Source of the DNA: Sphingomonadaceae bacterium PASS1
GTDB taxonomy: Bacteria > Pseudomonadota > Alphaproteobacteria > Sphingomonadales > Sphingomonadaceae
Reading direction: 5' to 3'
Length of the DNA stretch: 64,000 bases
NCBI GenBank assembly: GCA_002255985.1
Contig: NKIR01000007.1
Location: 1-64,000, forward strand
The translations under genes were made by a program, and so were the position numbers. The notes under the pieces were generated by a model, which saw only the letters and a list, made by a program, of their open reading frames with translations, was not told the DNA's origin and ran no database searches. Numbering within the stretch: the stretch's first letter is position 1; each line of letters starts with the position of its first letter. This document shows, in pieces, positions 6,344 to 22,215 of this stretch.

Positions 6344-7066
6344 ATGCGTAAACTGATAGTTCTTCTTGCTTTGTCTTCTGCATTGACCGCCTGCGGCAGT
6401 TCGCAACTTGGCGGAACCGGAAGTGTTTCGGACATAAAGGTAGTCGAGAGCGACGTTTTACCAGAGCCTACGCGACTTGATCTTTTTGAACAGAACCGGC
6501 CGTATCTTATTGGGCCGTTTGATAAGTTAACCATCGACGTGTTCGGCATTGAAGAGCTGAGCAAACAAGAAGTCCAAACGGACGCGGGCGGACGCATATC
6601 GTTTCCTTTGGCAGGCATCATTGAAGCTGCCGGTAAAACACCCGGTGAGCTTGAAGAAGAAATCGAGGGCCGGCTTCGCGGTCAATATGTACGCGACCCG
6701 CAAGTTACCGTAAACCTCAAGGAAACTGTCAGTCAGGTGGTCACTATTGACGGCCAGGTACGTGAACCCGGATTATATCCGGTCATCGGGAAAATGACGC
6801 TAATGCGCGCAGTCGCGATTGCCAAAGGTACCGCGGAATTTGCGAAGTTGGATGACGTTGTCATTTTCCGTACCGTGAATGGCCAGAAGATGGCTGCATT
6901 GTACAATCTGAAGTCAATTCGCCGCGGAATTTACAATGACCCGGAGGTGTTTGCGAACGACGTGGTCGTGGTCGGTGACTCGCAGGCCCGGCGCATTTTC
7001 AAGGATGCGTTGCAGGTGGCACCAACCTTGCTAACGCCACTCGTTTATATTTTAACCACAAACTAA
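6344..7066 (+). CDS. Polysaccharide export lipoprotein (Wza/GumB-like, Poly_export and SLBB domains)
   Basis: The start is set at the ATG at 6344 because it begins a lipoprotein signal, MRKLIVLLALSSALTACGSS, with lipobox LTAC and predicted lipidated Cys17; the frame is open further upstream to 6248 without signal character. The 240-residue protein has a polysaccharide biosynthesis/export domain at about residues 50–130 (YLIGPFDKLTIDVFG ... YVRDPQVTVNL) and an SLBB-type beta-grasp at about 135–185 (TIDGQVREPGLYPV). Proteins of this type form the outer-membrane secretion channel for capsule or exopolysaccharide. The usual Wzc/Wzx/Wzy partners are not next to it. It lies upstream of the DSF-synthase-like gene on the same strand, 150 bases away. 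Confidence 0.88.
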   Translation: MRKLIVLLALSSALTACGSSQLGGTGSVSDIKVVESDVLPEPTRLDLFEQNRPYLIGPFDKLTIDVFGIEELSKQEVQTDAGGRISFPLAGIIEAAGKTPGELEEEIEGRLRGQYVRDPQVTVNLKETVSQVVTIDGQVREPGLYPVIGKMTLMRAVAIAKGTAEFAKLDDVVIFRTVNGQKMAALYNLKSIRRGIYNDPEVFANDVVVVGDSQARRIFKDALQVAPTLLTPLVYILTTN

Positions 7067-7216
7067 TTTGCGATATCGGACGCGTTTCGGAGCCCGTTGC
7101 TTCGATAATTAGTGTATTCCCTCCATTTCGGTAAGTTTATAGCTTGCAAAATGGAATATCGTGCTATGACGCCGTTATTGGCTGGGGTGGCCGAACACTG
7201 ATTTTTCGGGGGCTTT

Positions 7217-8167
7217 ATGTCATTCCACTCCCGCGCCCGCGGTGGCGCCGTTGAAATTAATGTGCACAGCTTCCCTGAGCGCAGCTTAGGCGTTCCAATA
7301 GTGGGGCGTAATTTTAATGAAATTGTTGTCCGTCATGACCAACAGGACAAGATATTCTGGTGTTTCATGAACCAGAGCGGGCGTCCCAGTTATACCTACA
7401 GTCTGGGTGCGGAAATCCAGCAAGTGCAGGATTGGGTTGCCGACAACTATGCGCTCCCTGCAAATGGAGGGCCCGACGATCTAAGTTATTTCGTGTGCGG
7501 TTCGAAAACGCCCGGCGTCTATAATCTCGGCGGTGATCTGCGCCATTTTGCCGAATGTATTCGCGCCGGGGACCTCGGGGCAATGCGAAAATATGCGGAA
7601 ACCTGTGTGCGCATGCAATATGTGAACAGCCAAGGATTTGGTGCGCCAATTATCACGATCGCGCTTGTTCAAGGGGACGCGTTGGGCGGCGGTTTTGAAC
7701 ATGCCCTAGCGTTTGATATTTTGGTTGCTGAACGCAGTGCACGCCTCGGCCTGCCGGAAATCATTTTTAACCTGTTCCCCGGCATGGGTGCCTACAGCTT
7801 TCTTGTTCGCCGTGTTGGCCGCAAAATGGCCGAGAATTTTATCCTTGAAGGTAAGATTCACACAGCTGAAGAGCTGCACGCGTTGGGCATCGTCGACATT
7901 TTGGTGGAAGACGGTGAAGGCGAAGCCGCTATTGTTGATTATTGCCGACGCAACCAGCAGCGCTTTGCTGCTGAACGCGCAGTCTATTTGGCGCGACGTG
8001 TATCGTCTCCGGTGGAGATTGATGAATTGCTAAAGATAACGAATATATGGGCTCAAACAGCCATGTCGCTTACCGATGCCGACGTTCGAAAGATGGAGCG
8101 ACTTGCCGATGCACAGGAGCGGCGAATGCAGCGTGGTCTTCGGACCGTTAGCTCGCATGAGCATTGA
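7217..8167 (+). CDS. rpfF: RpfF-like DSF synthase (crotonase fold)
   Basis: A 316-residue crotonase-superfamily protein. RpfF proteins make cis-2-unsaturated fatty-acid signals (DSF family) from acyl-ACP through thioesterase and dehydratase activities. The core GDALGGGFEHALAFDILVAE followed by RSARLGLPEIIFNLFPGMGA matches the RpfF signature closely: Glu161 and Glu181, 20 residues apart, sit where the Xanthomonas catalytic Glu141/Glu161 lie. Ordinary enoyl-CoA hydratases do not have the NLFPGMGAYSFL motif. The ATG at 7217 follows a GGGGGC stretch. The last 20 bases overlap the 3' end of the convergent rpfC-like gene, the same convergent rpfF/rpfC arrangement as in Xanthomonas. Signal production itself is inferred, and the exact product chain length cannot be predicted. 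Confidence 0.85.
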   Translation: MSFHSRARGGAVEINVHSFPERSLGVPIVGRNFNEIVVRHDQQDKIFWCFMNQSGRPSYTYSLGAEIQQVQDWVADNYALPANGGPDDLSYFVCGSKTPGVYNLGGDLRHFAECIRAGDLGAMRKYAETCVRMQYVNSQGFGAPIITIALVQGDALGGGFEHALAFDILVAERSARLGLPEIIFNLFPGMGAYSFLVRRVGRKMAENFILEGKIHTAEELHALGIVDILVEDGEGEAAIVDYCRRNQQRFAAERAVYLARRVSSPVEIDELLKITNIWAQTAMSLTDADVRKMERLADAQERRMQRGLRTVSSHEH

Positions 8168-10652
8168 CGCTATTTGATAAGGCATACACGTCGGATTTCA
8201 GGGCATCGACTGCCCGTGCGGCTTCGTGCTCCATTTTCTGCAGATAGCTGAATCGATGCTCAAAGAAGTCGGCTTCACTGACTTTTTCAAGCTGCCCACA
8301 TAACCGCGATAGCGAACTGGCACCCATGTTGTTGCCCGAACTTTTGAAAGCGTGCGCGCAGAAGCGGAATTCGGCAACCTGTCCATCCGCGACTGATTTA
8401 CGCAATGGATCAAGCGTTTGATCGACATCCTCAACAAATCCTTCAATCATCGTATTGACGAACGCTTGGTCACCGATTGACCGCAGATATTCAATTTGCT
8501 CTTGGTCGATTGGCGCGTCCGCTGGTGGAATGTGCCCAGAGATGGATACGACTTTATTGAATGGATCAATTGGCAATACCTGCTGCATTAGAGTCCCATT
8601 CGTCTCCCCGCAGCAATATTCCTCGATGGTGCTGAGAAGCATTTGTGCGTTCACTGGTTTAGTTATGCGCATATCCATGCCAGCATTCCGGCACTGCATC
8701 TCCGTTTCTGAAGTCGCGTCGGCTGTTACGCCAATAATCGGCAGATGGTTGCGGCCGCCTTCAATCTGCCGCCACATGGAACACGTGTCGATGCCGTTAA
8801 GTCGCGGCATGTTTACATCGAGCAATAATATATCGATGCCACCTTTTTCCATCTCCTCAAGCGCTTCATCGCCGTCGGTGACCATGACAACGGTATGGCC
8901 CGCAGCCTCTAGAATCGCGGACAGAACGTTCCGGTTCGTCCGGTTGTCATCGGCAACCAAAATCCGTTTTGGCGTGTAGCTTGGCGAGTGCTGCTGTTCA
9001 CCCCCATGCGTTATGCGCATTTGCCGAGCAAAAGAGCAGCCTATGCGAATGGCACTGCGGAGTTCCGCAAAGTTCGGCATGGCGGGTATAATAGACGCAA
9101 ATGCGGCCCTTAGCTCAACGTCGTCCAGTTCCACAGCCTCGTGCTCAGACACGAGTACAGGCGCAATCTCCGCCCTGGCGAAGATGGACCAGACAGCGTC
9201 TTCTGAATCGATATCTTGAACAACAGACTCCGCCATGAGCGCAACGCTGAATTCGGCTAGATCGATGCTTGCGAGCGCCGAAACAAGTTCCTGTCTATTG
9301 GTGCAAGGCACATGATGGACAAAGAAGTTTTCATGTGACGGCGCGCTGGCCAGTAACTCAGGTTTCATATGACCAAATGACAGGATTTTTACAGCGTCTG
9401 CCGGATACACGAAATCAGCAACAGGCTCGCCATCGATCAATTTGATGGGTATTTCGACGCGGAACGTACTGCCTTGGCCTATTTGGCTTTCAACAGAAAT
9501 CTTCCCGTCAATTTGTTCTATAAGCTGCTTGCAGATGGAGAGACCAAGGCCTGTACCGCCAAACCGGTTTAAAACACTGTCATCGGCTTGCTGGAAAGGC
9601 TGGAAAATGCGCTCACACGCAGTTTCGCAAATGCCAATGCCCGTATCCGTCACAGTAAACCATATGTGGCGCTTATCATTTTTGATGATGATGCCGCTGT
9701 TAAGTTTAATTGATCCTGACTCGGTGAACTTGGTAGCGTTACCGACCAAATTCAGGAGGATGTTCCGGATGGCGCCGTTCGGCCCTTCAACGATCCGGTC
9801 GCTCATGGGTTCTGCCTGAAGATGCAGGCTAAGGCCTTTCTCTTCCGCCCGGACGGTCATGATATCGCGAATTTCGGTTAACAGATCCGTGGGCCGGAAT
9901 GTAGCCGTCGTCACGTTCATGGTTCCCGTTCCGGTTTTGGCAACATCAATCAGCTGTTCAATCAGGTGCAACAAATGTTCACCGGCAAGAACACTTGCCT
10001 CAACCATTTCCTTTTGCCCCCGTGACATCTCCGATTGGCGCAAATGGTTTCCGTAACCGATGATGGCGTTCAACGGCGTTCGCAATTCATGGCTGACGCT
10101 GGCGAGGAAATAACTCTTTGCTTTGCTTGCCTCTTCGGCCTGCTCTTTTGCATGAGAAATTTTGCTAATGAGTGTCGAGCAATAAGCGGGAATGGCGATT
10201 AAGGCGAACGCGAGCGCAATCCCCAAAAATTGGTTCTGTTGCCAATAAGCAGTTGAAAAAACAACAATGCTAAAAGTCGCCGTTGAGAGTGCCGATGCAA
10301 CAAATAGCCATTTAATGCCATATCGAAAGCCATTGCCCAAGATCATCCACAGAATGATCGGATAGAAGATTGATAAATGCTCGGGCTCGCGCAGCATGAC
10401 GGTGAAGGCCATCATCACGTCCAGTATGATGGCCCCAAACCAGCGATTTTCTGGCTGCCAAATGCCATAACGCTGCATAGCGTAGAGTGCGGCATTGCAT
10501 GACAAATACGCAAAAAACGCTGAAAAAATGAGCGCGTCAAATGCGAAAAAGTAGCAACCGATGCCTGAGATGCCGCCCATGACGAGCCGGTTGCGAAGGA
10601 TCTCCTGTTCAGGTGTTAAATCACCGCGCAGCTTTTTCAAAAAGGATGTCAT
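8148..10652 (-). CDS. rpfC: RpfC-like hybrid sensor histidine kinase (HK-REC-HPt)
   Basis: An 834-residue membrane kinase. The N-terminal 165 residues hold four to five transmembrane segments, including YPIILWMILGNGFRYGIKWL, which strongly resembles the input region of Xanthomonas RpfC, the DSF receptor. Then come a HisKA domain with His188 (SVSHELRTPLN), an HATPase domain (N-box NLVGNATKF at about 301, DTGIGI, FGGTGLGLSI), a degenerate linker of about 150 residues, a receiver domain with Asp612 (LLLDVNMP) and an HPt domain with His767 (CAHAFKSSG). All phosphorelay residues are intact. It overlaps the stop of the upstream response-regulator gene by an ATGA and is convergent with rpfF. Role: DSF perception and phosphorelay to the adjacent regulator (inferred from family and context). 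Confidence 0.87.
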   Translation of the reverse strand: MTSFLKKLRGDLTPEQEILRNRLVMGGISGIGCYFFAFDALIFSAFFAYLSCNAALYAMQRYGIWQPENRWFGAIILDVMMAFTVMLREPEHLSIFYPIILWMILGNGFRYGIKWLFVASALSTATFSIVVFSTAYWQQNQFLGIALAFALIAIPAYCSTLISKISHAKEQAEEASKAKSYFLASVSHELRTPLNAIIGYGNHLRQSEMSRGQKEMVEASVLAGEHLLHLIEQLIDVAKTGTGTMNVTTATFRPTDLLTEIRDIMTVRAEEKGLSLHLQAEPMSDRIVEGPNGAIRNILLNLVGNATKFTESGSIKLNSGIIIKNDKRHIWFTVTDTGIGICETACERIFQPFQQADDSVLNRFGGTGLGLSICKQLIEQIDGKISVESQIGQGSTFRVEIPIKLIDGEPVADFVYPADAVKILSFGHMKPELLASAPSHENFFVHHVPCTNRQELVSALASIDLAEFSVALMAESVVQDIDSEDAVWSIFARAEIAPVLVSEHEAVELDDVELRAAFASIIPAMPNFAELRSAIRIGCSFARQMRITHGGEQQHSPSYTPKRILVADDNRTNRNVLSAILEAAGHTVVMVTDGDEALEEMEKGGIDILLLDVNMPRLNGIDTCSMWRQIEGGRNHLPIIGVTADATSETEMQCRNAGMDMRITKPVNAQMLLSTIEEYCCGETNGTLMQQVLPIDPFNKVVSISGHIPPADAPIDQEQIEYLRSIGDQAFVNTMIEGFVEDVDQTLDPLRKSVADGQVAEFRFCAHAFKSSGNNMGASSLSRLCGQLEKVSEADFFEHRFSYLQKMEHEAARAVDALKSDVYALSNSVNAHAS

Positions 10653-12790
10653 TTCGCCGCCAGCCTGAACGGTTCTGCACCGCCCTTGAACAGATTGTGC
10701 AGATCATAGACAGACAGCGGCCGACCCATGAGATATCCTTGAACCTCGTCGCAACCTGAAGCGCGAAGCAGCGTAAATTGGGCTTCTGTCTCAACGCCCT
10801 CTGCGACGACCCGCATATTCAGCGCATGGGCCAAATGGGCGATAGTGGAGATGATTGCGCGATCGGTAGCCGATGTCTCGATCCGCGAGATAAAGGTTTG
10901 GTCAATTTTCAAACGGGTCGCTGGCAAGTCCCGTAAATATTGCAGCGACGAATAGCCCGTGCCAAAATCATCGATAGAGATCTGAATGCCGCCCGCGCGC
11001 AACATTGCCAATTGCTCGTGCACCTTCTGGCTGTTGTCAATTAACAGCTCTTCGGTGATTTCAATCGCCAGCTTGCCGCGTGGAATGGCATATTTCGCAA
11101 CCAAATCGAGCATCTCGGAGCACATCGCGGAATATTGAAACTGCTTCGGCGACACGTTGACGGCTACATGTGGGAGCTCAATGCCTTCGTCGGCAAACAA
11201 CGCAATTTGCTTGCACACGGCTTCGACGACCCATGTGCCGATACGGCCAATTAAGCCGGAATCATTGGCTACTTTGATGAAGTCAGCGGGGCTCAAACGT
11301 CCCCTGACTGGGTGGTTCCAACGCAACAAAGCCTCAAGACCTGCATAATTGCCTGAGGCGGTGTCGACTATCGGCTGATATTCCAGGAACAACTGATCGC
11401 TGTTGAGCGCGTCACGAAGGTCGGTCTCGATACCTGCATTCATTTGTGCGATGTGGTTCATTTGCGGCGAAAAGAAGCAGAAGCAATTTCGGCCTGACGC
11501 TTTGGCTTCATACATGGCAAGGTCAGCCAGACGCAGCAGTTCGTCGGGTGAGGTGCCATCTTCGGGAATACGTGCAACGCCGATGCTTGCACCGATGGTC
11601 TGCTCAACGCCGCCAATGGTATATGGCTCACCAATTTTTGCGAGCAGCTTGGTGCATATGTCTGCGGCACTGCTATTGTCATCGAGATTTTGAAGAACAA
11701 TGGCGAATTCGTCGCCGCCGATGCGTGCGGCAAAGCCGTTGCTGTCCAGCGCCGAGATAAGGCGCTCGGCCACCTGGCGGAGCAAAACATCGCCTGTCTG
11801 GTGTCCGCGGGTGTCATTGATGACTTTAAACCGGTCTAGGTCGAGCAGCAGCAGCGAGGCAGCTTTGCCGCTGGCGTTGCTCTCATCAATGGCGGTGCGC
11901 ATCTTTTGCGCAAGTAAGGTGCGGTTGGGAAGGCCTGTGAGCATATCATGCAACGCCAGATGCGTCCGGTGTTCCTCGGCAAATTTGCGCGCCGTGATAT
12001 CAAGACCTGTCGTCAGGATACCTATGGTCTGGTTATCTTTGTTGAGGAGGGGTGACTTGTTGCATTGAAAAATGAGTTCAATACCTTCGCTGACAAACTT
12101 TTCTTCGAAGTTAGGTATCGAGTTTCCCGTTTCGAGAATGACGTTATTCCGGTGCGCTTCGCGTTCAACCAAGTCGGGTTCCATGATTTCCGAAATGGAT
12201 CTACCTACCAGTTGTTCCGGCTCGCGACCGAAAAGCGCAGCTTGATATGAATTTAAAAACAGAAACTTACCGTTTCGGTCAGTCGCGTTGATCAAAATCG
12301 GCGTTGTGTCGATGATTTGCTCCAGCATCGACTTGCTGCTTTTGTCGTCGCCATCTGCGCCATCAGACCCCGCCCGATTGCTCTCAAGCGATTGCTTGAG
12401 TTCCTGCTGACGATAATGCTGCCCCAAGAGCAATAATGCGCGATCGCGAAATTCGATGTGGGATACGGGCGTCTGCAAAAAGTCGGTCGCGCCGGCGTCC
12501 AGAGCGGTGATCCGGCATTCCCGGTCTTGCCGTGCAGTGATGATAATCGCTGGGATGTGCGCGCCGACGGTGCGAGAACGGATTTTGCTGATGAATTCCG
12601 CACCGTTCATTTCTGGCATACGGTAGTCCACGACAAGTAGGTCTGTCGTCTCGGTCTCAAGCCATTCCAAAGCCTCGATCGCGCTGTGAAAACACTTCGC
12701 GGAGAACTCCGGACCCATCATCGCAACATAATGCGCATAAACGCGCAAGTTGGTTGATCTGTCGTCTACAATGACAATACGAGCATGCAT
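10649..12790 (-). CDS. Response regulator with PAS, GGDEF and EAL domains (c-di-GMP turnover)
   Basis: The ATG at 12790 gives 713 residues beginning MHARIVIVDD; an in-frame TTG at 12817 is less likely. Order of domains: receiver (about 1–120, phosphoacceptor Asp55 in LLVVDYRMPEMNG), PAS (about 155–270), GGDEF (about 275–440, intact GGDEF at 358–362, no RxxD inhibitory site seen) and EAL (about 455–700, intact EALLRW at 486, DDFGTGYSSL, VAEGVE). Both cyclase and phosphodiesterase motifs look catalytically complete. It is the first gene of a two-gene operon with the rpfC-like kinase (4-base overlap), the place RpfG (REC-HD-GYP) occupies in Xanthomonas. It is therefore the probable phosphorelay target that converts DSF sensing into a change of cyclic di-GMP. 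Confidence 0.9.
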   Translation of the reverse strand: MHARIVIVDDRSTNLRVYAHYVAMMGPEFSAKCFHSAIEALEWLETETTDLLVVDYRMPEMNGAEFISKIRSRTVGAHIPAIIITARQDRECRITALDAGATDFLQTPVSHIEFRDRALLLLGQHYRQQELKQSLESNRAGSDGADGDDKSSKSMLEQIIDTTPILINATDRNGKFLFLNSYQAALFGREPEQLVGRSISEIMEPDLVEREAHRNNVILETGNSIPNFEEKFVSEGIELIFQCNKSPLLNKDNQTIGILTTGLDITARKFAEEHRTHLALHDMLTGLPNRTLLAQKMRTAIDESNASGKAASLLLLDLDRFKVINDTRGHQTGDVLLRQVAERLISALDSNGFAARIGGDEFAIVLQNLDDNSSAADICTKLLAKIGEPYTIGGVEQTIGASIGVARIPEDGTSPDELLRLADLAMYEAKASGRNCFCFFSPQMNHIAQMNAGIETDLRDALNSDQLFLEYQPIVDTASGNYAGLEALLRWNHPVRGRLSPADFIKVANDSGLIGRIGTWVVEAVCKQIALFADEGIELPHVAVNVSPKQFQYSAMCSEMLDLVAKYAIPRGKLAIEITEELLIDNSQKVHEQLAMLRAGGIQISIDDFGTGYSSLQYLRDLPATRLKIDQTFISRIETSATDRAIISTIAHLAHALNMRVVAEGVETEAQFTLLRASGCDEVQGYLMGRPLSVYDLHNLFKGGAEPFRLAAK

Positions 12791-12896: not shown

Positions 12897-15025
12897 TTAC
12901 ATTATGTGGATATGGTTAGCGAACGCATGAATGGCTTGATTTAACATTGGGGCTATTTGCCCATGGATCGACCGCAGACCAGATTGCGCGGGGCGGGGTG
13001 CTAACCATCCCATTTCCGCTGCTGATGCCGAGCCAATGTGTCGGGGGTTCATACCACATGCAGCGCTAATCTGATGGGCGAATTCGAACCAGTTGAGCGT
13101 TTCGCCGTTGCTGATGTGAAATAGGCCGTGCGCGCGATCAATGATGCAGTCCAGCACGATATCTGCGAGATGCGGTACATAGGTTGGCGAAACCATGTGG
13201 TCAGGCGATGCCAAAAATGTCTCACCGTTTCTGAGGGTCGCGATCAGCCGGTGCGCAAAATTATATCTGTCGAATGGCGAGAAAAATGCGGATGTTCGCA
13301 CGACCAGCGGCGTCGCCATTTCTAGTAATCCCGCGTCAGCGATTGCCTTGCTCTCCCCATAAACACTCAACGGGCTTGTGACTGCATATTCGCTGTACGG
13401 GGTGTCTGACTTGCCATCAAAGACCAGATCGCTGGAGAAGTGTGCGTTTGGGATGCCGCGCTCCTCACAACATTGCGCGAGCCTTAGCGCTCCTGCTGCG
13501 TTCGCCGACATGCAGGCGTCATAAGCGCGTTCTGCCTCGTCAACCTTAACCCAACCCGTGGCATTGATGAGGGCCCAAGGGTTGTACTTTTGGAGTGCGG
13601 CATCGATGCTCCTGCGGTCATCCAGTGCCAATTGATGGCGTGATGTGGTCACTATGCGAAGGCCACGATGCTTAGCTGCAAGTGCTAAGGCCTGCCCAAG
13701 CGATCCTGTTATGCCTGCAATCAAGAGGGGCGCATCGGGTGTAAGATTGTGTGTGCGAACAACCGGACCGGCCACAGGCGCAGGCGGAAATTTCAACCGG
13801 TCTTCGCGTTGCCACCAGCCAGGCCCCGAAACCGCAGCAGGAAGGGCGATGTTATGTGCAAGCGCCTTAATGGTTTCCGCAACGGCGGTTGGCCTGATAG
13901 TTCCCCCGCGGGGATCGAATACGCCCCCTTCGAAATCAACCAGTTCTTGCGTGAGCAAGTTGGACCAACCCCGGGCGCCCATAAGGGTCCATATTGTGAT
14001 CGAAACGATGGAGCCGCCAGCAGCATTTAGTGCTTCGGCACCATGCCACGCGTCACGTACCCACCGCATTTGCTCTTCCCGGGTGCATCCATTGTGGCAT
14101 TCGGTCAATGCGACGGGAATTTTGTAGCGTTCCCAAGCTTCTGACAATGCAGTCTTAAGGCCATTAGTGGGGGCTGATAAGACCCGGATAGCCTCAACAT
14201 CTGCAAAATCCCGGCGACCGTTGGTTCCAATATTTTGCACTGGGTAACGCTCTATCCGATGGTCGAGAAAGCGGTCACTGGTCAGGTAATGGTTCACGCC
14301 GATGATGTCAGGGGGGCAGGGTGCCGTTGCAATTCTATCAAGTTGGTCTTTGAATCCCAAAGCACATAGCCCATCGTAAAAAGTATGATCCCGGCCAACG
14401 AGGCCGCATAGCAGATCCCACGTCATCCAGCGTCGTTGATTGTCATAAGCTGCCTGGTCCGACATGGCAGCTGTTGCATATGTTGTTCCAAGATCTTCTG
14501 TCTGGATCAGCTTCGCCTCTGGATTTACCAGCCGGATTTCGCGCATAGCGGCGATGGTTGCTTCAGTCTGATTGAGGAGTGCGGTCCAAAACGACACCTC
14601 ATCGCGATTGTGCGGATACCAATGCCCGTAAAGCGCTGAAAAACGAGCGGTGGTGAGCGGTTCATTGATGGGGGTCCAATATTCGATTGTAGGCAACTTG
14701 CGTGCGATTTCGCGGGCATGTGCCCCATTCCGTCGATAAAATTGTCCGAAATCAAACTGGTGTCAGCCGGTCCGCTGCCGTGGTGGAGCAACCCGATAAT
14801 CGGCTTAATGTTATGCGATGTGAGCAACGCGATGTCCTGTGCCACGGTATCCCACGGTGTTGAAACATCATCCCAGGCGATGCGATACCTAAATGCAGTG
14901 ACCCCGAGCGCGGGTAATGACTCAAGGCAATGGGTTCGCTTTTTACGTTCGGTTGGCAGCAACTGGTCCTGAAAGCGGTCGCCGACCCGATTAAGGGTGC
15001 ATTCAAACCCGGCCCACATTTCCAT
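12897..15025 (-). pseudogene. Glycoside hydrolase family 1-like/RmlD-like fusion gene with an apparent frameshift
   Basis: Two overlapping minus-strand frames belong to one gene of about 709 residues. The first starts at the ATG at 15025 (GAGGGA about 9 bases upstream) and reads MEMWAGFECTLNRVGDRF ... GLLHHGSGPADTSLISDNF; the second continues with YRRNGAHAREIARKLPTIEY and then WTPINEPLTTARFSALYGHW. Adding one base to the run of four A at 14738–14741 joins them seamlessly. The N-terminal half is GH1-like (acid/base Glu in INEPLT, nucleophile candidate in LTECHNG). The C-terminal half, from about residue 430, is an RmlD/dTDP-4-dehydrorhamnose reductase-like Rossmann domain (GITGSLGQALA, YGESKA). 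It is divergent from the glf fusion gene, implying a role in surface-glycan synthesis. A homopolymer sequencing error is possible. Confidence 0.8.
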
Positions 15026-15111
15026 CGCATGTCCCTCAATTCATCGTGAAATACGGGAACCATCGGGGTGAGCATTGGTTTCATAGAAGATATGAACCTG
15101 GGATAAAAAAT

Positions 15112-17454
15112 ATGTTTATTGCCGCGACAGATACAAACAAAATAAATCATGCCGATAAATCTATTTTGATTTGTTTTAGCCATTTGCGATGGAGCTTTGT
15201 ATTTCAACGTCCGCAACATATAATGTCTCGGTTTGTACGTGATTTTAAAGTTATTTATTGGGAGGAACCAAATTTCATTACTGGTTCCCAACCGCTGCTT
15301 GATATGCAGACGTGCAAGGACAGTGGTGTCACTGTCGCTACGCCGCAGTTGCCTGAAGGCTTATCGGTAAAGCAGCAGGAAATAGCGCTTCGGGGTTTGC
15401 TTGATAAACTGGCTTTGTCCGGCCTTAATAAACTGGTTCGCTGGTATTACACCCCAATGATGCTGCCGTTCTCACGTCATTTGAAAGCGACATCGATTGT
15501 CTATGATTGCATGGACGAGCTAAGCGCGTTTCGTTTTGCGCCTCCGGAGCTTCTCCAACGTGAGGCCGAACTGCTTGAGGAAGCAGATCTCGTCTTCACT
15601 GGCGGCAAAAGCCTGTATGAGGCGAAGCGCAACCGTCACGCCTCGGTCCACTGTTTCCCGTCCAGTGTCGACGTCGCGCATTTCGCAGCAGCGCGGACGC
15701 ATACCGAAGATCCTGCAGACCAAGCGGACATAGCGTTCCCCCGCCTTGGCTATTACGGCGTTATCGACGAACGTATTGATCTTGAACTGTTGTCACAGCT
15801 TGCCGATGCGCGGCCCGAATGGAACTTCGTCATGATCGGGCCGGTTGTTAAGGTTTCAGAAGAAGAACTGCCGCGTCAGCCCAATATTCACTGGCTTGGT
15901 AGCAAATCTTACAATGAATTGCCCCAATATCTCGGTGGATGGGATGTGGCGCTGATGCCATTCGCCCTTAACGAATCTACGCGGTTTATCAGCCCGACCA
16001 AAACCCCTGAGTATCTGGCCGGTGGCAAGGTCGTTGTGTCCACGCCAGTGACCGATGTCGAGGCAGGCTATGGCCAATGTCCACGCGTGTGCATTGCATC
16101 AACACCTGAAGGCTTTGTCGCCGCGTGCGAAATGGCGCTGATATTCGCGAAAACAGGTGAAGGCACGAAGGTCGCCGATGCCATGATCGCCGCAACCAGT
16201 TGGGATAAAACCCAGTCTGAAATGGCGAGCTTGATAGTCGATGTGCAATCATCTGAGTTACGGGTCCATCCGATTACAGCGCCCTTGTCATGGCCAGCAC
16301 CCGCGCAAAAGCATTATGACTGGGTTGTTGTCGGCGCTGGTTTTGCCGGATCGGTGATGGCCGAACGCCTTGCCGCGGGATCTGCATATAACGTGCTTGT
16401 TGTCGATCGCCGCCCGCATATCGGCGGGAATGCGTTTGATGAACGGAACGCGGTAGGGCAGTTGTACCACAAATATGGTCCGCATATTTTCCACACGAAC
16501 TCGGCGGACGTTTTCGAATATTTGTCGCGGTTCACCAAATGGCGCAAATATGAACATCGGGTTTTGGCGCGTGTCGATGGCACATTGGTGCCAATCCCCA
16601 TCAACCGGACAACAATCAACACATTATACGGCCTCGATTTGCAGACCGACGAAGACGTCAAAGCGTGGCTTGCGGCAAGGGCCGAGCCAGTAGTGACGAT
16701 AGAAACATCGGAAGACGTCGTCGTGTCCGCTATTGGCCGCGAATTGTATGAAAAATTCTTTCGTGGATATACCCGCAAGCAATGGGGTCTCGACCCAAGC
16801 GCATTGGACAAATCTGTAACGGCGCGAGTGCCAACCCGGACGAATGCCGACGACCGATATTTCACGGACAAATATCAAGCCATCCCAGCGGAGGGATACA
16901 CCAAGATGTTTGAAAACATTCTGGATCATCCGAAAATCGACGTAATTACGGGTGTAGATTTTGCGGAAATAAAGGATGCGTATTCCTATGACCATCTCGT
17001 TTATACAGGGCCGGTCGATGAATATTTTGCGTTCTGTTATGGCGCGTTGCCATATCGATCACTTCGTTTCGACCATGCCATTGTCGAGCAGGAAAATTTC
17101 CAGCCGGTGGCAACAGTGAATTATCCGGACGAAGCGACGCCCTATACGCGCATCACCGAATATAAGCATTTCACTGGCGATACCGGCGGCGTGACCAGCA
17201 TTACGACCGAATATCCGGCCGCCGAAGGTGACCCTTATTACCCAATCCCGCGTCCGGAAAATCAGAATCTTTACAAACGCTATGAAGCATTGGCGATGGC
17301 TGAAGAAAATACGTTGTTTGTGGGCCGCCTTGCGACTTACAAATATTACAACATGGACCAGGTTGTTGGTCAGGCCCTTGCCACATGGCGTAAGCGCGTC
17401 GTTGCTGAGCACGATACGATAGCTGCTATTTCTCCGGTACATGCGGTAGGGTAA
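15112..17454 (+). CDS. glf: Fusion of glycosyltransferase and UDP-galactopyranose mutase
   Basis: The ATG at 15112 gives 780 residues; a GTG at 15046 would add 22 residues but leave only 20 bases to the divergent gene. Residues about 20–385 form a GT-B glycosyltransferase-like domain (FSHLRWSFVFQRPQHIMSR; ISPTKTPEYLAGGKVVVSTP near the donor site). Residues about 402–780 are a complete UDP-galactopyranose mutase: FAD-binding VVVGAGFAGSVMAERLA, then HKYGPHIFHTNS, RKQWGLDP, and C-terminal YYNMDQVVGQAL. Glf converts UDP-galactopyranose to UDP-galactofuranose, so the protein may both make and transfer a galactofuranose donor, or pair Glf with a different transfer step. It faces the GH1/RmlD fusion gene across a short shared promoter region. 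Confidence 0.88.
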   Translation: MFIAATDTNKINHADKSILICFSHLRWSFVFQRPQHIMSRFVRDFKVIYWEEPNFITGSQPLLDMQTCKDSGVTVATPQLPEGLSVKQQEIALRGLLDKLALSGLNKLVRWYYTPMMLPFSRHLKATSIVYDCMDELSAFRFAPPELLQREAELLEEADLVFTGGKSLYEAKRNRHASVHCFPSSVDVAHFAAARTHTEDPADQADIAFPRLGYYGVIDERIDLELLSQLADARPEWNFVMIGPVVKVSEEELPRQPNIHWLGSKSYNELPQYLGGWDVALMPFALNESTRFISPTKTPEYLAGGKVVVSTPVTDVEAGYGQCPRVCIASTPEGFVAACEMALIFAKTGEGTKVADAMIAATSWDKTQSEMASLIVDVQSSELRVHPITAPLSWPAPAQKHYDWVVVGAGFAGSVMAERLAAGSAYNVLVVDRRPHIGGNAFDERNAVGQLYHKYGPHIFHTNSADVFEYLSRFTKWRKYEHRVLARVDGTLVPIPINRTTINTLYGLDLQTDEDVKAWLAARAEPVVTIETSEDVVVSAIGRELYEKFFRGYTRKQWGLDPSALDKSVTARVPTRTNADDRYFTDKYQAIPAEGYTKMFENILDHPKIDVITGVDFAEIKDAYSYDHLVYTGPVDEYFAFCYGALPYRSLRFDHAIVEQENFQPVATVNYPDEATPYTRITEYKHFTGDTGGVTSITTEYPAAEGDPYYPIPRPENQNLYKRYEALAMAEENTLFVGRLATYKYYNMDQVVGQALATWRKRVVAEHDTIAAISPVHAVG

Positions 17455-17594: not shown

Positions 17595-18527
17595 ATGCAC
17601 AATATGCCTCATTATGAAGAGCAATATCTATCGTTGATGCGCCGCATTTGGACCGAGGGTGCTGTTCAGCGCGATCGGACTGGTGTTGGCACCAAAGCGT
17701 TGTTTGGCGCCACTATGCACTTCTCGCTGGCAGACGATGCTATTCCTCTGTTGACCACCAAGCGGGTGTTCTGGAAAACAGCGGCGCGCGAGATGCTCTG
17801 GTTTTTGACCGGCAACACAAATATCCAGCTCTTGCTTCAACAGAATGTCAAAATCTGGACCGACTGGCCTTTGGCGCGATATCGGCGCGAAACGGGCGAA
17901 GACATCACGCAGGATGCATTTGAGCAACGCATCGTCGAAGATGATGCCTTTGCCGCTCAATGGGGTGACTTGGGGCCGGTCTACGGCGCGCAGTGGGTCA
18001 ACTGGCCGCGTTATGAGGCAGCGGACAACGGACTGTTCCGCCGTGCCGAGAAAGGCATCGATCAAGTCAGTCTGCTGGTCGAAAGTCTGAAGAATAACCC
18101 GGGTTCGCGCCGCCACATCATCGAAGGCTGGAACGTTGCCGAGCTCGATCAAATGGCGCTTCCGCCTTGCCACAAGACATATCAGTTCCATGTCGCGGAC
18201 AGTGTCTTGAGCTGCATCCTATTTCAGCGTTCTTGCGACCTGGGCCTCGGATTTGCGTTCAATGCATTTTCTGCCGCTTTGTTGACGCGGATGCTCGCTG
18301 CGGTCTGTGGGTACAAGGCGGGCGAACTGATCTGGCAGGGTGGCGACGTGCATTTATATCTGAACCATGCACCTTTGGTTGAGGAGCAGTTGAGCCGCAC
18401 ACCATCCGGCAACCCCAAGCTAAAGCTTTTGCGCACGCCCGACAGCATTTTTGACTTCCGTATCGAAAATTTTGAAGTGTCGGATTATCATCCGCAATCG
18501 CACATTTCTGCGCCAGTTGCGGTCTAA
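17595..18527 (+). CDS. thyA: Thymidylate synthase
   Basis: A 310-residue ThyA that methylates dUMP to dTMP using 5,10-methylene-tetrahydrofolate. The active-site Cys192 lies in MALPPCHKTYQFHV; the phosphate-binding DRTGVGT (residues 27–33), SRRHIIEGWN and CDLGLGFAFN nucleotide-binding stretches, and the substrate motif GGDVHLYLNH are all present. It is longer than the 264-residue E. coli enzyme because of an insertion near residues 90–150, a common variant length. Start at ATG 17595; a second ATG three codons later is equally possible. It stands alone on the plus strand with 140 bases upstream. Confidence 0.97.
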   Translation: MHNMPHYEEQYLSLMRRIWTEGAVQRDRTGVGTKALFGATMHFSLADDAIPLLTTKRVFWKTAAREMLWFLTGNTNIQLLLQQNVKIWTDWPLARYRRETGEDITQDAFEQRIVEDDAFAAQWGDLGPVYGAQWVNWPRYEAADNGLFRRAEKGIDQVSLLVESLKNNPGSRRHIIEGWNVAELDQMALPPCHKTYQFHVADSVLSCILFQRSCDLGLGFAFNAFSAALLTRMLAAVCGYKAGELIWQGGDVHLYLNHAPLVEEQLSRTPSGNPKLKLLRTPDSIFDFRIENFEVSDYHPQSHISAPVAV

Positions 18528-18636
18528 TTGAGCATTAGGGCAGCTATATTGACCTAAAGGACCGTTTGAAATATTATAACAACCGTCGATAATAAACCAC
18601 CTGAGTCGTTTCGGGTAGGTGACTGCGGAGATGGTG

Positions 18637-19923
18637 ATGGTGCACGGTATCAAGAACAATCTCGCGCCGCTTCATCTCCATGTGCCGGAACCCAAGTTCC
18701 GTCCGGGCGATAAGGCCGATTTTAGCGACATCATTATCCCCGAAGTGGACGCCATTACGCGTCCAGATGAGCGCGCCAGCCCAGCGGACATACATGCACT
18801 GGCTTACGGCCTTGTCCGAGTCTTGGACGATGACAATCGGGCGGTTGGCAGTTGGAATCCCGGGTTAGATGCAGATACGCTGCGTAACATGCTCCGCAAG
18901 ATGTTGCTATTGCGCGCCTTTGATGACCGGATGTTCCGGGCACAGCGCCAGGGCAAAACCAGTTTCTATATGAAGTCCTTTGGTGAGGAAGCGACGTCGG
19001 TTGCAACCACGATGGCGCTGCATTCGGATGACATGTGTTTTCCAAGCTATCGCCAGCAAGGCATTCTGATTACGCGGGATTATCCGCTCGTTGATATGAT
19101 GAACCAGATTTATTCGAACAGTGGCGATCGTCTGAAGGGGCGCCAGCTGCCCATCATGTATTCCGCCAAGGATTACGGATTTTTCAGTATTTCGGGCAAC
19201 CTGACAACGCAATATCCGCAGGCGGTGGGTTGGGCCATGGCGTCTGCATCGCGCGCCGATACCCGTATCTCTGCGGTGTGGTGTGGTGATGGGTCGACAG
19301 CGGAAGGTGACTTTCACAGCGCGCTGACATTTGCCGCCGTGTATAATGCGCCGGTTATCTTTCAGGTCGTGAACAACCAGTGGGCGATTTCGTCATTCTC
19401 CGGTTTTGCAGGCAGTGAGCGGACGACGTTCGCCGCGCGTGCCATTGGCTATGGCATCGCTGGATTGCGCGTGGACGGCAATGACGCGCTGGCCGTTTTT
19501 GCAGCCATGCAGTGGGCGGCCAACCGCGCGCGCACAAATGGCGGGCCAACATTGATTGAATATTTCACCTATCGCGGCGAAGGGCATTCGACGTCGGATG
19601 ACCCCGGCGCTTATCGTGCGGCGGAAGAATATGCCTTGTGGCCGCTTGGAGACCCTGTGACGCGCCTCAAGGATCATTTGATAGTGATCGGCGCATGGAG
19701 TGACGAACAGCATGAGGCGCTCATTCTGGAACTGTCAAACTCCGTAAAGGCGACCCAGAAAGAGGCGGAGCAGAACGGGATTTTAGGGCATGGCCTGCAT
19801 CACCCAATGGAAACCATGTTCGAAGATGTGTTCGAGGAAATGCCATGGCATTTGAAAGAGCAATGCGAACAGATGTTGGAAGAACAGCGCGACAAATTCG
19901 GCCCTGAATGGGAGGCGCGCTGA
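18637..19923 (+). CDS. bkdA1: Branched-chain 2-oxoacid dehydrogenase E1 component, alpha subunit
   Basis: A thiamine-diphosphate enzyme subunit of about 428 residues that, with the beta subunit, decarboxylates 2-oxoisovalerate and related branched-chain oxoacids. The TPP motif runs from GDGSTAEGDFHSAL to VVNNQWAIS, and FMKSFGEEA-type and YRGEGHSTSDDP stretches typical of BCKDH E1 alpha are present. I choose ATG 18637, 6 bases after GGAG; GTG 18619 and ATG 18631 are alternatives. The stop overlaps the E1 beta start (TGATG). The length beyond 400 residues and the long N-terminal extension favour branched-chain over pyruvate dehydrogenase. Confidence 0.92.
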   Translation: MVHGIKNNLAPLHLHVPEPKFRPGDKADFSDIIIPEVDAITRPDERASPADIHALAYGLVRVLDDDNRAVGSWNPGLDADTLRNMLRKMLLLRAFDDRMFRAQRQGKTSFYMKSFGEEATSVATTMALHSDDMCFPSYRQQGILITRDYPLVDMMNQIYSNSGDRLKGRQLPIMYSAKDYGFFSISGNLTTQYPQAVGWAMASASRADTRISAVWCGDGSTAEGDFHSALTFAAVYNAPVIFQVVNNQWAISSFSGFAGSERTTFAARAIGYGIAGLRVDGNDALAVFAAMQWAANRARTNGGPTLIEYFTYRGEGHSTSDDPGAYRAAEEYALWPLGDPVTRLKDHLIVIGAWSDEQHEALILELSNSVKATQKEAEQNGILGHGLHHPMETMFEDVFEEMPWHLKEQCEQMLEEQRDKFGPEWEAR

Positions 19924-20951
19924 TGTCTGAGCCCGCGACCAAAAGTATGAACATGATTGAGGCGATCAATAGCGCCTTGGACGTGATGCTTGAGAAAGAC
20001 CCCGAAGTTGTCATCATGGGCGAAGACGTTGGCTATTTCGGCGGCGTGTTCCGCGCGACTGCGGGCCTTCAGAAAAAGCACGGCAAAACCCGCGTTTTTG
20101 ACACGCCCATCAGCGAATGTGGGATCATCGGCGTTGGCGTTGGCATGGCGGCTTATGGCCTTCGCCCCGTGCCCGAGATTCAGTTTGCGGATTACATCTA
20201 TCCCGGGCTTGATCAGTTGGTCAGCGAGGCCGCGCGCATGCGCTATCGTTCTGCCAATGACTTTATCTGTCCCATGACCGTGCGTTCGCCCTTTGGCGGC
20301 GGCATATTCGGGGGTCAGACGCATAGCCAAAGCCCCGAAAGCCTGTTCACGCATGTGTGCGGGATCAAGACGGTTATTCCAGCGACACCTTATGATGCAA
20401 AGGGGCTGCTGATTGCCGCGATCGAAGACAATGACCCAGTCGTGTTTTTTGAACCCAAGCGGATCTATAATGGGCCGTTCAGCGGCTATTATGACCGCCC
20501 GGTCGAGCCATGGTCCAAACATGATGGCAGCGCCGTTCCAGAAGGCTATTATCGCATAGACTTAAGCAAGGCTGCTGTTGTGCGGGAAGGGGAGGCTGTC
20601 ACGGTCCTGACCTATGGCACGATGGTGCATGTTGTGAAAGCCGTCGTCGCCGAGCATGGCATTGACGCCGAAATCATCGACCTGCGGACATTATTGCCAT
20701 TGGACATCGAAACCATTGAGGCATCGGTCAAGAAAACGGGCCGCTGTATGGTTGTGCATGAAGCGACCCGTACCAGCGGATTTGGCGCTGAATTGGCTGC
20801 GCAGGTGCAGGAACGGTGCTTCTATCATCTCGAGGCACCAATAGAACGCGTGACAGGGTTTGATACGCCATATCCACACAGCCTCGAATGGGCATATTTC
20901 CCCGGCCCCGTGCGGCTTGCCCGTGCATTTGACAAGATCATGAAGGACTGA
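19923..20951 (+). CDS. bkdA2: Branched-chain 2-oxoacid dehydrogenase E1 component, beta subunit
   Basis: 342 residues from the ATG at 19923, which overlaps the E1 alpha stop. It contains the transketolase pyrimidine-binding region (MGEDVGYFGGVFRATAGL, PISECGIIGVGVGMA) and the C-terminal transketolase domain (DLRTLLPLDIETIEASV). It pairs with the alpha subunit to form the E1 heterotetramer. EDVGYFGGVFRAT and the PFGGGIFGGQTHSQSPESLF loop are characteristic of branched-chain oxoacid dehydrogenases. Translational coupling with its neighbours fits a fixed stoichiometry. Confidence 0.93.
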   Translation: MSEPATKSMNMIEAINSALDVMLEKDPEVVIMGEDVGYFGGVFRATAGLQKKHGKTRVFDTPISECGIIGVGVGMAAYGLRPVPEIQFADYIYPGLDQLVSEAARMRYRSANDFICPMTVRSPFGGGIFGGQTHSQSPESLFTHVCGIKTVIPATPYDAKGLLIAAIEDNDPVVFFEPKRIYNGPFSGYYDRPVEPWSKHDGSAVPEGYYRIDLSKAAVVREGEAVTVLTYGTMVHVVKAVVAEHGIDAEIIDLRTLLPLDIETIEASVKKTGRCMVVHEATRTSGFGAELAAQVQERCFYHLEAPIERVTGFDTPYPHSLEWAYFPGPVRLARAFDKIMKD

Positions 20952-20955
20952 CTTT

Positions 20956-22215
20956 ATGCCCACATTCATATTCAACTTACCGGATATTGGCGAAGGCATA
21001 GCCGAGGCAGAAATCGTTACATGGCATGTAAAGGTTGGCGACAGCATTTCTGAAGACCAGCCACTGGCGGACATGATGACGGACAAAGCGACCGTCGAAA
21101 TGGAAAGCCCGGTGGCGGGGATCGTGACCAAGGTTGCTGGCGAGATGGGCGATGTCATCGCCATCGGGTCTATGCTCGTGGAGATTGAAACCGCGACTGA
21201 CGTCAGTCAGGTGGAAAGCACGGTAAAGGTAGAGGCGGTTGCGACGGTGGAAGACGAGCTGTCACATGCGCCTGAACCAGTCGCAACTGAACCAGAGGTC
21301 GTGCAAGAAAGGCCTACGGTTGTGCCGGCCCAGTCGCCTAGCATAAGCGCCGACCATAAGATTACAGCGTCGCCCGCAGTGCGCCAACGTGCCAAGGAAC
21401 TCGGCGTGGAATTAACTGACGTCAAGGCGGCAGGCGGGCATATCCGGCACGCTGATCTCGATGCGTTTCTGGCCTATGGAAGCGGGCAGGGCTATCGCGC
21501 ATCACATATCAGCGCGCGCCGCGACGACGAGAATGTCAAAGTCATCGGCATGCGCCGGCGCATTGCGGACAATATGGCGGCGTCAAAGCGCCACATCCCG
21601 CATTTCACCTATGTCGAAGAAATTGACGTCACCGCGATTGAAGCGATGCGCGCCGACCTAAACGCCAATCGCGGCGCAAGGCCAAAGCTGACGATGCTCC
21701 CATTGCTTATCGTGGCGATCTGCAAGACCATCCCGCAATTCCCGATGATCAACGCCCGCTATGACGACGAAAATGGCGTCGTGACGCGCCATGGCGCGGT
21801 GCATCTGGGTATGGCAACGCAAACCGATGCCGGATTAATGGTCCCTGTAATCCGCGATGCGCAGGATAGAAATATTTGGCAGCTTGCAACGGAGATTGCG
21901 CGCCTTGCCAACGCTGCGCGGAGCGGCTCAGCGAAAAGTGAAGAGCTGTCGGGCTCCACGCTTACAGTGACGTCACTTGGCCCCTTGGGCGGGATTGTGA
22001 CCACACCTGTCATCAATCGACCTGAGGTCGCGATCATCGGACCCAATAAGATTGTCGAACGTCCGATGTTTGTCGGCGACACTATTGAGGCACGTAAACT
22101 GATGAACCTGTCGATGAGCTGCGACCATCGTGTGGTCGACGGTTGGGATGCGGCCAATTATGTTCAGTCGCTGAAAAAGCTTATGGAAACGCCCGTTTTG
22201 TTATTCGCCGATTAA
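20956..22215 (+). CDS. bkdB: Branched-chain 2-oxoacid dehydrogenase E2 (lipoamide acyltransferase)
   Basis: A 419-residue E2 core protein. One lipoyl domain at residues 1–78 with the lipoylated lysine Lys44 in MMTDKATVEME, a Pro/Glu/Val-rich linker, a peripheral-subunit-binding domain at about 135–172 (ASPAVRQRAKELGVELTDVK), and the catalytic acyltransferase domain from about 190 to the end with the SCDHRVVDGWDAA active-site motif. It transfers the branched acyl group to CoA. It is four bases downstream of the E1 beta gene. No E3 (lipoamide dehydrogenase) gene follows, so E3 must be supplied from elsewhere in the genome. Confidence 0.94.
   Translation: MPTFIFNLPDIGEGIAEAEIVTWHVKVGDSISEDQPLADMMTDKATVEMESPVAGIVTKVAGEMGDVIAIGSMLVEIETATDVSQVESTVKVEAVATVEDELSHAPEPVATEPEVVQERPTVVPAQSPSISADHKITASPAVRQRAKELGVELTDVKAAGGHIRHADLDAFLAYGSGQGYRASHISARRDDENVKVIGMRRRIADNMAASKRHIPHFTYVEEIDVTAIEAMRADLNANRGARPKLTMLPLLIVAICKTIPQFPMINARYDDENGVVTRHGAVHLGMATQTDAGLMVPVIRDAQDRNIWQLATEIARLANAARSGSAKSEELSGSTLTVTSLGPLGGIVTTPVINRPEVAIIGPNKIVERPMFVGDTIEARKLMNLSMSCDHRVVDGWDAANYVQSLKKLMETPVLLFAD

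Follow-up and report, generated by a model that had tools for sequence, protein, structure and literature searches.

The question raised by this locus is whether a crotonase gene and a hybrid kinase gene facing each other in Sphingomonadaceae bacterium PASS1 form a system that makes and senses a diffusible signal factor (DSF), and if so, by what kind of receiver the signal would be read. The stretch analysed, hereafter the window, covers the first 64,000 nucleotides of contig NKIR01000007.1, which belongs to a draft assembly of 3.07 Mb in 30 contigs. From sequence comparison, we have found that the locus most probably (probability of roughly 0.8) encodes a cluster for cell-cell signalling of the DSF type, in which the receiver has a distinct layout. 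In this layout the genes for an RpfC-type kinase and a REC-GGDEF-EAL regulator are convergent with rpfF, and the three genes together are called the trio below. The original prediction had placed four open reading frames (ORFs) here, i.e., an export lipoprotein, an RpfF-like crotonase, a hybrid kinase, and a regulator; the ORF coordinates confirm all of them, as well as the convergent crotonase and kinase genes with their 20-bp overlap (Table 1). The regulator and kinase genes run in one direction and overlap by 4 bp (10649-10652). The convergent layout had been likened to that of Xanthomonas, and this agrees with the excerpted text of a review (PMC4504480).

The crotonase belongs to the RpfF family. 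In a PDB search its best matches were 7zq7 (190 bits), the RpfF entry 3m6m (183 bits), and 5fus and 6dgn (158 bits each), and the next crotonase reached 64 bits. A maximum-likelihood tree of 93 rows splits 85 RpfF-like rows, including PDB fragments of 3m6m, 7zq7, and 5fus, from 8 enoyl-CoA hydratases of the window genome (those returned out of 21 other matches) at a support of 100/100. In this tree, the window RpfF lies inside a sphingomonad group of trio loci; two rows labelled XRTA, L087 and L092, have no exosortase markers in the fetched stretch. Glu161 and Glu181, which are 20 residues apart and which we take to be the catalytic pair of RpfF, are invariant in a nine-sequence alignment including a PDB RpfF fragment, and so is the motif LFPGMGA (F187-A192 within it). 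The RpfF-like identity with both glutamates, as originally predicted, is therefore supported by the tree, the PDB matches, and the invariant residues. The proposed phylogenetic comparison with enoyl-CoA hydratases groups the crotonase with the solved RpfF proteins, and the contrary outcome, an ordinary enoyl-CoA hydratase, is ruled out by the tree. The window genome has 22 Pfam ECH_1 matches, although the rpfF sequence matches a single place in it at E 1e-30, rpfF itself. In the best 80 loci, the nearest named RpfF is 81% identical and comes from a Sphingorhabdus metagenome assembly, followed by those of uncultured Sphingomonadaceae and Novosphingopyxis baekryungensis, which makes Sphingorhabdus or a close neighbour of it the probable source of the window.

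The kinase carries the Pfam domains HisKA, HATPase_c, Response_reg, and Hpt, and its membrane input region had been said to match RpfC. We have scored this region with a profile made from 7 RpfC-type input regions of kinases paired with HD-GYP regulators, with the kinase core removed. The window kinase reaches 79.5 bits (E 1.3e-24). All 47 scored trio kinases reach at least 70.5 bits and the non-RpfC kinases of the same loci at most 0.6 bits. For this separation, 7 of the 20 kinases first taken as negatives were reassigned after the scores were seen, as they turned out to be of the RpfC type and to stand in different layouts. The input region is thus of the RpfC type as claimed; an N-terminus unrelated to RpfC, which would have undone the assignment, was not seen, and a kinase unrelated to RpfC is ruled out by this profile. 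In L208, the kinase adjoining RpfF has no RpfC-type input region (0.6 bits), which means that RpfF-neighbouring kinases are not always RpfC-like. His188, Asp612, Lys665, and His767 are invariant in all 48 aligned trio kinases. A simple hydropathy scan of the input region gave overlapping segments and does not fix the helix count.

The regulator is where the locus departs from Xanthomonas. It contains Response_reg, PAS, GGDEF, and EAL domains according to Pfam and no HD-GYP domain, which rules out RpfG. The complete synthase, sensor, and regulator set that had been predicted is present in that all three genes are found, but the regulator is REC-PAS-GGDEF-EAL and not the REC-HD-GYP kind of Xanthomonas. 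All 49 aligned regulators share Asp55 and the EAL residues E486, N545, E577, D607, D608, K628, E664, and Q684, and each position of the GGDEF motif is conserved in 48-49 of them. The REC-PAS-GGDEF-EAL regulators of the trio loci form one clade (97/90). Their PAS part is closely shared with the REC-PAS-HisKA regulators of other RpfF loci (hhalign E 7e-39), which suggests a common REC-PAS chassis that can bear either a GGDEF-EAL or a HisKA output. We have also considered the PAS domain as an RpfR-type signal pocket. For this no support was obtained: the window PAS scores 27 bits against the RpfR N-terminal region, within a background of median 25 and maximum 46 bits, with 2 of 5 RpfR-type N-termini passing the anchor pattern and being usable. 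A sister relationship of the GGDEF-EAL part to RpfR is at best tentative: its support was 91/83 in a tree with a small background set, in which the window protein had by error been included a second time together with the same-family regulators L114 and L118.

To see how widely the layout is spread, we have surveyed 160 RpfF loci, i.e., the window, 59 others of the order, 80 named loci most like the window RpfF, and 20 from a draw over the phylum, with contexts assigned by motif patterns and BLAST; three locus pairs among them have identical RpfF cores. The trio is found in 48 loci (47 distinct), which is not a frequency since the named loci were chosen by similarity to the window RpfF. The other convergent neighbours are a kinase with REC-HD-GYP (8 loci), a kinase with REC-HisKA (6), and GGDEF-EAL alone (18); the remainder has a kinase without a regulator found (17), two unclear regulator types (1 each), or none of these (61). 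By their titles, the 48 loci are almost all alphaproteobacterial (Roseomonas, Ancylobacter, Gluconacetobacter, Aureimonas, Microvirga, Pseudovibrio, Stappia, Inquilinus, and others), and the titles outside this class are one Burkholderiales and one Mycobacterium. The recurrence in 48 of the 160 loci indicates that the cluster is more than chance. The search for the same gene order elsewhere in Sphingomonadales, as had been proposed, gave an RpfF match in 60 of 296 genomes of an evenly drawn set, and the trio in 5 of those 60 loci. The view that DSF systems are odd in Alphaproteobacteria has to be given up, as DSF-type clusters are common there according to this survey.

Two further arrangements were met in the order. 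In four loci of other families (L043, L044, which shares its contig with L163, L046, and L048), RpfF continues at its C-terminus into a heme-oxygenase-like domain (PF14518; best PDB match 3dde, 58 bits) with conserved Glu, His, and Asp positions, and the fusions form one clade (100/100). A REC-PAS-HisKA regulator lies beside all four, and an RpfC-type kinase is present where the contig reaches (L043, L044). Possibly such a fusion yields a modified DSF signal; our literature search has found no paper on RpfF with a heme-oxygenase-like domain. In twelve sphingomonad loci (L045, L047, L049, L050, L051, L053, L056, L058, L065, L066, L069, and L072), the gene convergent with rpfF encodes a GGDEF-EAL protein, and a kinase is absent, a layout like that of RpfF-RpfR. 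Their GGDEF-EAL proteins show no likeness to the RpfR N-terminus.

Evidence that sensor and synthase belong together comes from a sample of 45 genomes of the same genus. Here rpfF occurs in 22 genomes and a sensor match in 26, and all of the 22 are among the 26. For the 23 genomes without rpfF, 19 have no sensor match, 2 have kinases with near-invariant sensor residues altered, and 2 have REC-Hpt stubs. G693 has kept the lipoprotein gene, the kinase, and the regulator, with 35 bp at the place of rpfF and no rpfF trace by tblastn. Its sensor is 49% identical to that of the window, compared with 76-80% in five rpfF-bearing relatives with similarly distant regulators, while the kinase elsewhere is conserved (HisKA 92%, REC 76%). 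Three of its 19 near-invariant sensor residues are altered (N21, W102, G106), and three are altered also in G691, another genome without rpfF (P98, G106, R110). Among 61 kinases with rpfF, the number of such changes is none in 52, one in 5, two in 3, and fifteen in 1 (L150). In G131 and G683, the regulator is kept (91% and 89%) and the kinase gene has shrunk to encode 351-354 residues. These cover the N-terminal stretch, the linker, REC, and Hpt; the kinase domains and the greater part of the input region are gone. G131 has a short ORF resembling the rpfF end, and in G683 none was seen. Such a stub (L275, L276) retains the relay where sensor and synthase have been lost. In addition, G181 has the lipoprotein gene followed directly by thyA, with the whole trio absent between them, the kinase frame of G684 is short (239 residues), and that of G672 is split. 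The presence of rpfF changes 4 times on the regulator tree, and at least 3 changes are forced by well supported branches. Since the input region is of the RpfC type and does not survive unchanged in genomes that have lost rpfF, the kinase and rpfF belong to one circuit, a conclusion that says nothing of whether the signal is secreted or internal.

Several points weigh against a DSF-type signalling cluster. The window RpfF scores 216 bits with the NCBIfam RpfF equivalog model, under the cut-off of 550, and 350 bits with the wider PRK08788 crotonase model, over the cut-off of 177; the RpfF of L062 is likewise under the RpfF cut-off (208 bits). In the REC domain, the usual conserved Lys is Thr107 in the window, and the position is Ser in 45 and Thr in 4 of the 49 regulators; of 8 HD-GYP regulators, 7 have Lys and 1 has Arg there, and Ser is found in 6 of 6 REC-PAS-HisKA regulators. 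With Ser or Thr in place of Lys, switching by phosphorylation may follow another mechanism. The evidence from sensor loss comes from four genomes and 3-4 events, and the 19 near-invariant positions were picked on rpfF-bearing kinases, which favours the result somewhat. The sensor of L274 is 45% identical to that of the window, compared with 45-57% in rpfF-bearing relatives, and only the invariant positions stand out there. Finally, L150 has 15 changes in a kinase with rpfF, probably by a cut or alignment fault, as its N-terminus has the usual motif.

To these points the likely ligand contacts must be added. In Xanthomonas RpfC, R15, D17, S18, E19, and Q22 are needed for DSF binding, according to the excerpted text of PMC5391125, from which we have taken the numbering, mapping the alignment by hand on the Glu. 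The window kinase has D, T, P, E, and I at these positions, with the Glu alone kept. The residues are found in the 48 trio kinases at counts of R 28, D 38, S 17, E 47, and Q 0, and in 8 HD-GYP-paired kinases at R 6, D 5, S 4, E 8, and Q 8, so that even the latter group keeps the five incompletely. The contact stretch has thus been reshaped, more in the genus of the window than elsewhere, and for this reason the signal may not be the DSF of Xanthomonas; the kinase may read another ligand.

These points bear on other explanations of the locus. The RpfF-family crotonase could be a metabolic enzyme of chain-shortening, membrane-lipid, or cofactor chemistry, with the kinase sensing the state of membrane or fatty acids, i.e., a private lipid switch and not cell-cell communication. 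Such a role would agree with the PRK08788 model being over its cut-off and the RpfF model not, with the DSF-contact residues being mostly replaced, and with kinase-less family members in exosortase-A loci (35 of 59), which suggest other uses of the product. Still, the RpfC kind of the input region and its loss or alteration together with rpfF point to one circuit, which applies to a secreted and an internal signal alike; we consider the metabolic role unlikely. Alternatively, the kinase may respond mainly to RpfF as a protein and less to a product that diffuses. RpfF of Xanthomonas binds the receiver domain of RpfC. In favour of contact, the PDB entry 3m6m contains an RpfF chain and an RpfC receiver-domain chain, and the joint loss of sensor and synthase is equally explained by contact. 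However, in L244 it is the membrane input region that is altered (49%), while the receiver domain, the known place of contact, is at 76% as in rpfF-bearing relatives, which makes the contact explanation rather improbable. As for an ordinary enoyl-CoA hydratase lying accidentally beside an unrelated hybrid kinase, nothing was found in its favour, and it is contradicted by the tree, by the input-region profile, and by the layout in 47 distinct loci, and its chance is practically negligible.

If the locus is a DSF-type signalling cluster, RpfF would convert 3-hydroxyacyl-ACP (acyl carrier protein) to a free cis-2-unsaturated fatty acid, as its relatives suggest. The kinase would detect this product via its short N-terminal stretch and the membrane helices, as expected from homology and from the altered sensors of the genomes lacking rpfF. 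Phosphate could then pass along the observed residues from His188 to Asp612, His767, and Asp55 of the co-transcribed regulator. Since the regulator has complete GGDEF and EAL motifs, perception of the signal should alter cyclic di-GMP, most likely by activation of the EAL phosphodiesterase, as in both known DSF receivers. The job of the HD-GYP regulator of Xanthomonas would be taken by a REC-PAS-GGDEF-EAL protein, here and in many Alphaproteobacteria. More tentatively, and at a chance that we place slightly below even, there may be a third class of DSF circuit in Alphaproteobacteria, with an RpfC-type kinase, a phosphorelay, and a regulator having cyclase, phosphodiesterase, and its own PAS. 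Its remodelled contact stretch would read a signal other than the Xanthomonas DSF, its GGDEF-EAL and histidine kinase outputs would be exchanged on one REC-PAS chassis, and lineages ceasing to signal would disarm the sensor and keep relay and output for other inputs.

The original prediction had also proposed cell-density control of surface polysaccharide from a GumB/Wza-like lipoprotein upstream of the synthase. The export domains (Poly_export 84 bits, SLBB 37 bits) and the adjacency in the window stand, but a conserved partner it is not. Its best NCBIfam match is TIGR03027 with 92 bits, under the cut-off of 180, and no NCBIfam export model is over its cut-off. Of the 22 rpfF carriers in the genus, 7 have the lipoprotein gene directly upstream of rpfF; the remaining 15 have a best match that is weak, lies on a different contig, or is at least 86 kb away. 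Three genomes of the genus in which rpfF has no match (G181, G687, G693) carry the gene as well, at 91-93% identity. Taken together, the lipoprotein gene belongs to the neighbourhood of rpfF in a single group within the genus, outside which we reject the GumB link as a conserved feature. In the order, a different, non-nested RpfF clade is found in exosortase-A/PEP-CTERM exopolysaccharide loci without a kinase. An amidotransferase and an exosortase are both present in 35 of the 59 order loci, with the amidotransferase gene at most 600 bp upstream on the same strand in 27; one of these loci (L062) was annotated by family models. The window genome has exosortase A on another contig. This clade keeps a general polysaccharide link alive and is no evidence for the window copy, for which control of surface polysaccharide by the DSF cluster is a weak suggestion.

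Table 1 Coordinates of the cluster and neighbouring features in the window; those of the stubs refer to the loci named
Feature	Position	Strand	Basis and remarks
Polysaccharide-export (GumB/Wza/EpsE-type) lipoprotein	6344..7066	+	Pfam Poly_export, SLBB; local neighbour, doubtful part of the system
rpfF, DSF-type synthase of crotonase fold, Glu161/Glu181, 316 residues	7217..8167	+	PDB RpfF matches, tree
Overlap of convergent rpfF and kinase 3' ends, 20 bp	8148..8167	.	ORF coordinates
RpfC-type hybrid kinase, 834 residues: membrane input region, HisKA, HATPase, REC, Hpt	8148..10652	-	Pfam, RpfC-only input profile
Kinase membrane input (sensor) region, residues 1-170, motif W102-G106-G108-F-R110-G112	10143..10652	-	Profile, alignment
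Response regulator REC-PAS-GGDEF-EAL, in place of RpfG	10649..12790	-	Pfam, alignment
thyA and branched-chain 2-oxoacid dehydrogenase E1a/E1b/E2	17595..22215	+	Identified from reading of the sequences alone; syntenic neighbours, far side
RpfC-derived stubs, 351-354 residues, REC and Hpt, beside a full regulator	L275:8784-9839; L276:9973-11037		

The regulator in Table 1 is counted from ATG, with a longer ORF from TTG 12817, and for the lipoprotein a longer frame is possible from GTG 6248. A scan gave 7 promoter-like sites (6.0 expected) and 6 terminator-like sites (8.4 expected); being near expectation, it carries no information. On the far side of the cluster, the branched-chain 2-oxoacid dehydrogenase genes occupy 18619-22215. 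Enzymes of this type provide the branched primers from which fatty acids are built. Of the 21 regulator-bearing loci in the genus, 17 have thyA adjoining the cluster and the dehydrogenase genes staying with it, a neighbourhood that may be mere synteny. A glycosidase-like/RmlD-type gene and a fusion of glycosyltransferase and UDP-galactopyranose mutase (12897-17454) separate the regulator from thyA in the window and in L245, and not in the other loci examined for them. The former gene (12897-15025) is split over two frames in the window (ORFs 12897-14696 and 14525-15025), and a single ORF of 709 residues stands at its place in L245.

With regard to what is known of DSF reception, the excerpted text of the review cited above (PMC4504480) has RpfC/RpfG and RpfR as the only core receivers. 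By title and start of abstract, we have found no paper describing the layout of an RpfC-type kinase with a GGDEF-EAL regulator in the openly accessible literature, subscription journals being outside the scope. As a widespread layout of Alphaproteobacteria, it would bring a large class of bacteria from soil, plants, and water into the range of DSF signalling. Moreover, one genus offers a natural series for asking what the sensor reads, from the intact state, through the synthase lost with the sensor altered and the sensor and kinase deleted, to the loss of all.

Compared with RpfF-RpfC-RpfG of Xanthomonas and Stenotrophomonas, the window shares the RpfF family synthase, the RpfC-type input region, and the regulator and kinase genes lying together and convergent with rpfF, but its regulator is REC-PAS-GGDEF-EAL with Ser/Thr for the REC Lys instead of REC-HD-GYP, and four of the five DSF-contact residues of its kinase are replaced. 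With RpfF-RpfR of Burkholderia and Cronobacter it has the RpfF family in common; RpfR, however, is PAS-GGDEF-EAL without REC and needs no kinase, whereas the window enzyme combines a REC domain with a neighbouring kinase gene dedicated to it, and its PAS does not particularly resemble the N-terminal region of RpfR. Another close system is the combination of RpfF, RpfC-type kinase, and REC-PAS-HisKA regulator (6 loci, alphaproteobacterial by title), which shares RpfF, the RpfC-type input region, and a closely related REC-PAS part, in which the Lys is likewise replaced (Ser in 6 of 6), and differs in its output, a second histidine kinase module there and GGDEF-EAL here. Judged by these domain arrangements, the window layout is a third receiver layout beside RpfC/RpfG and RpfR.

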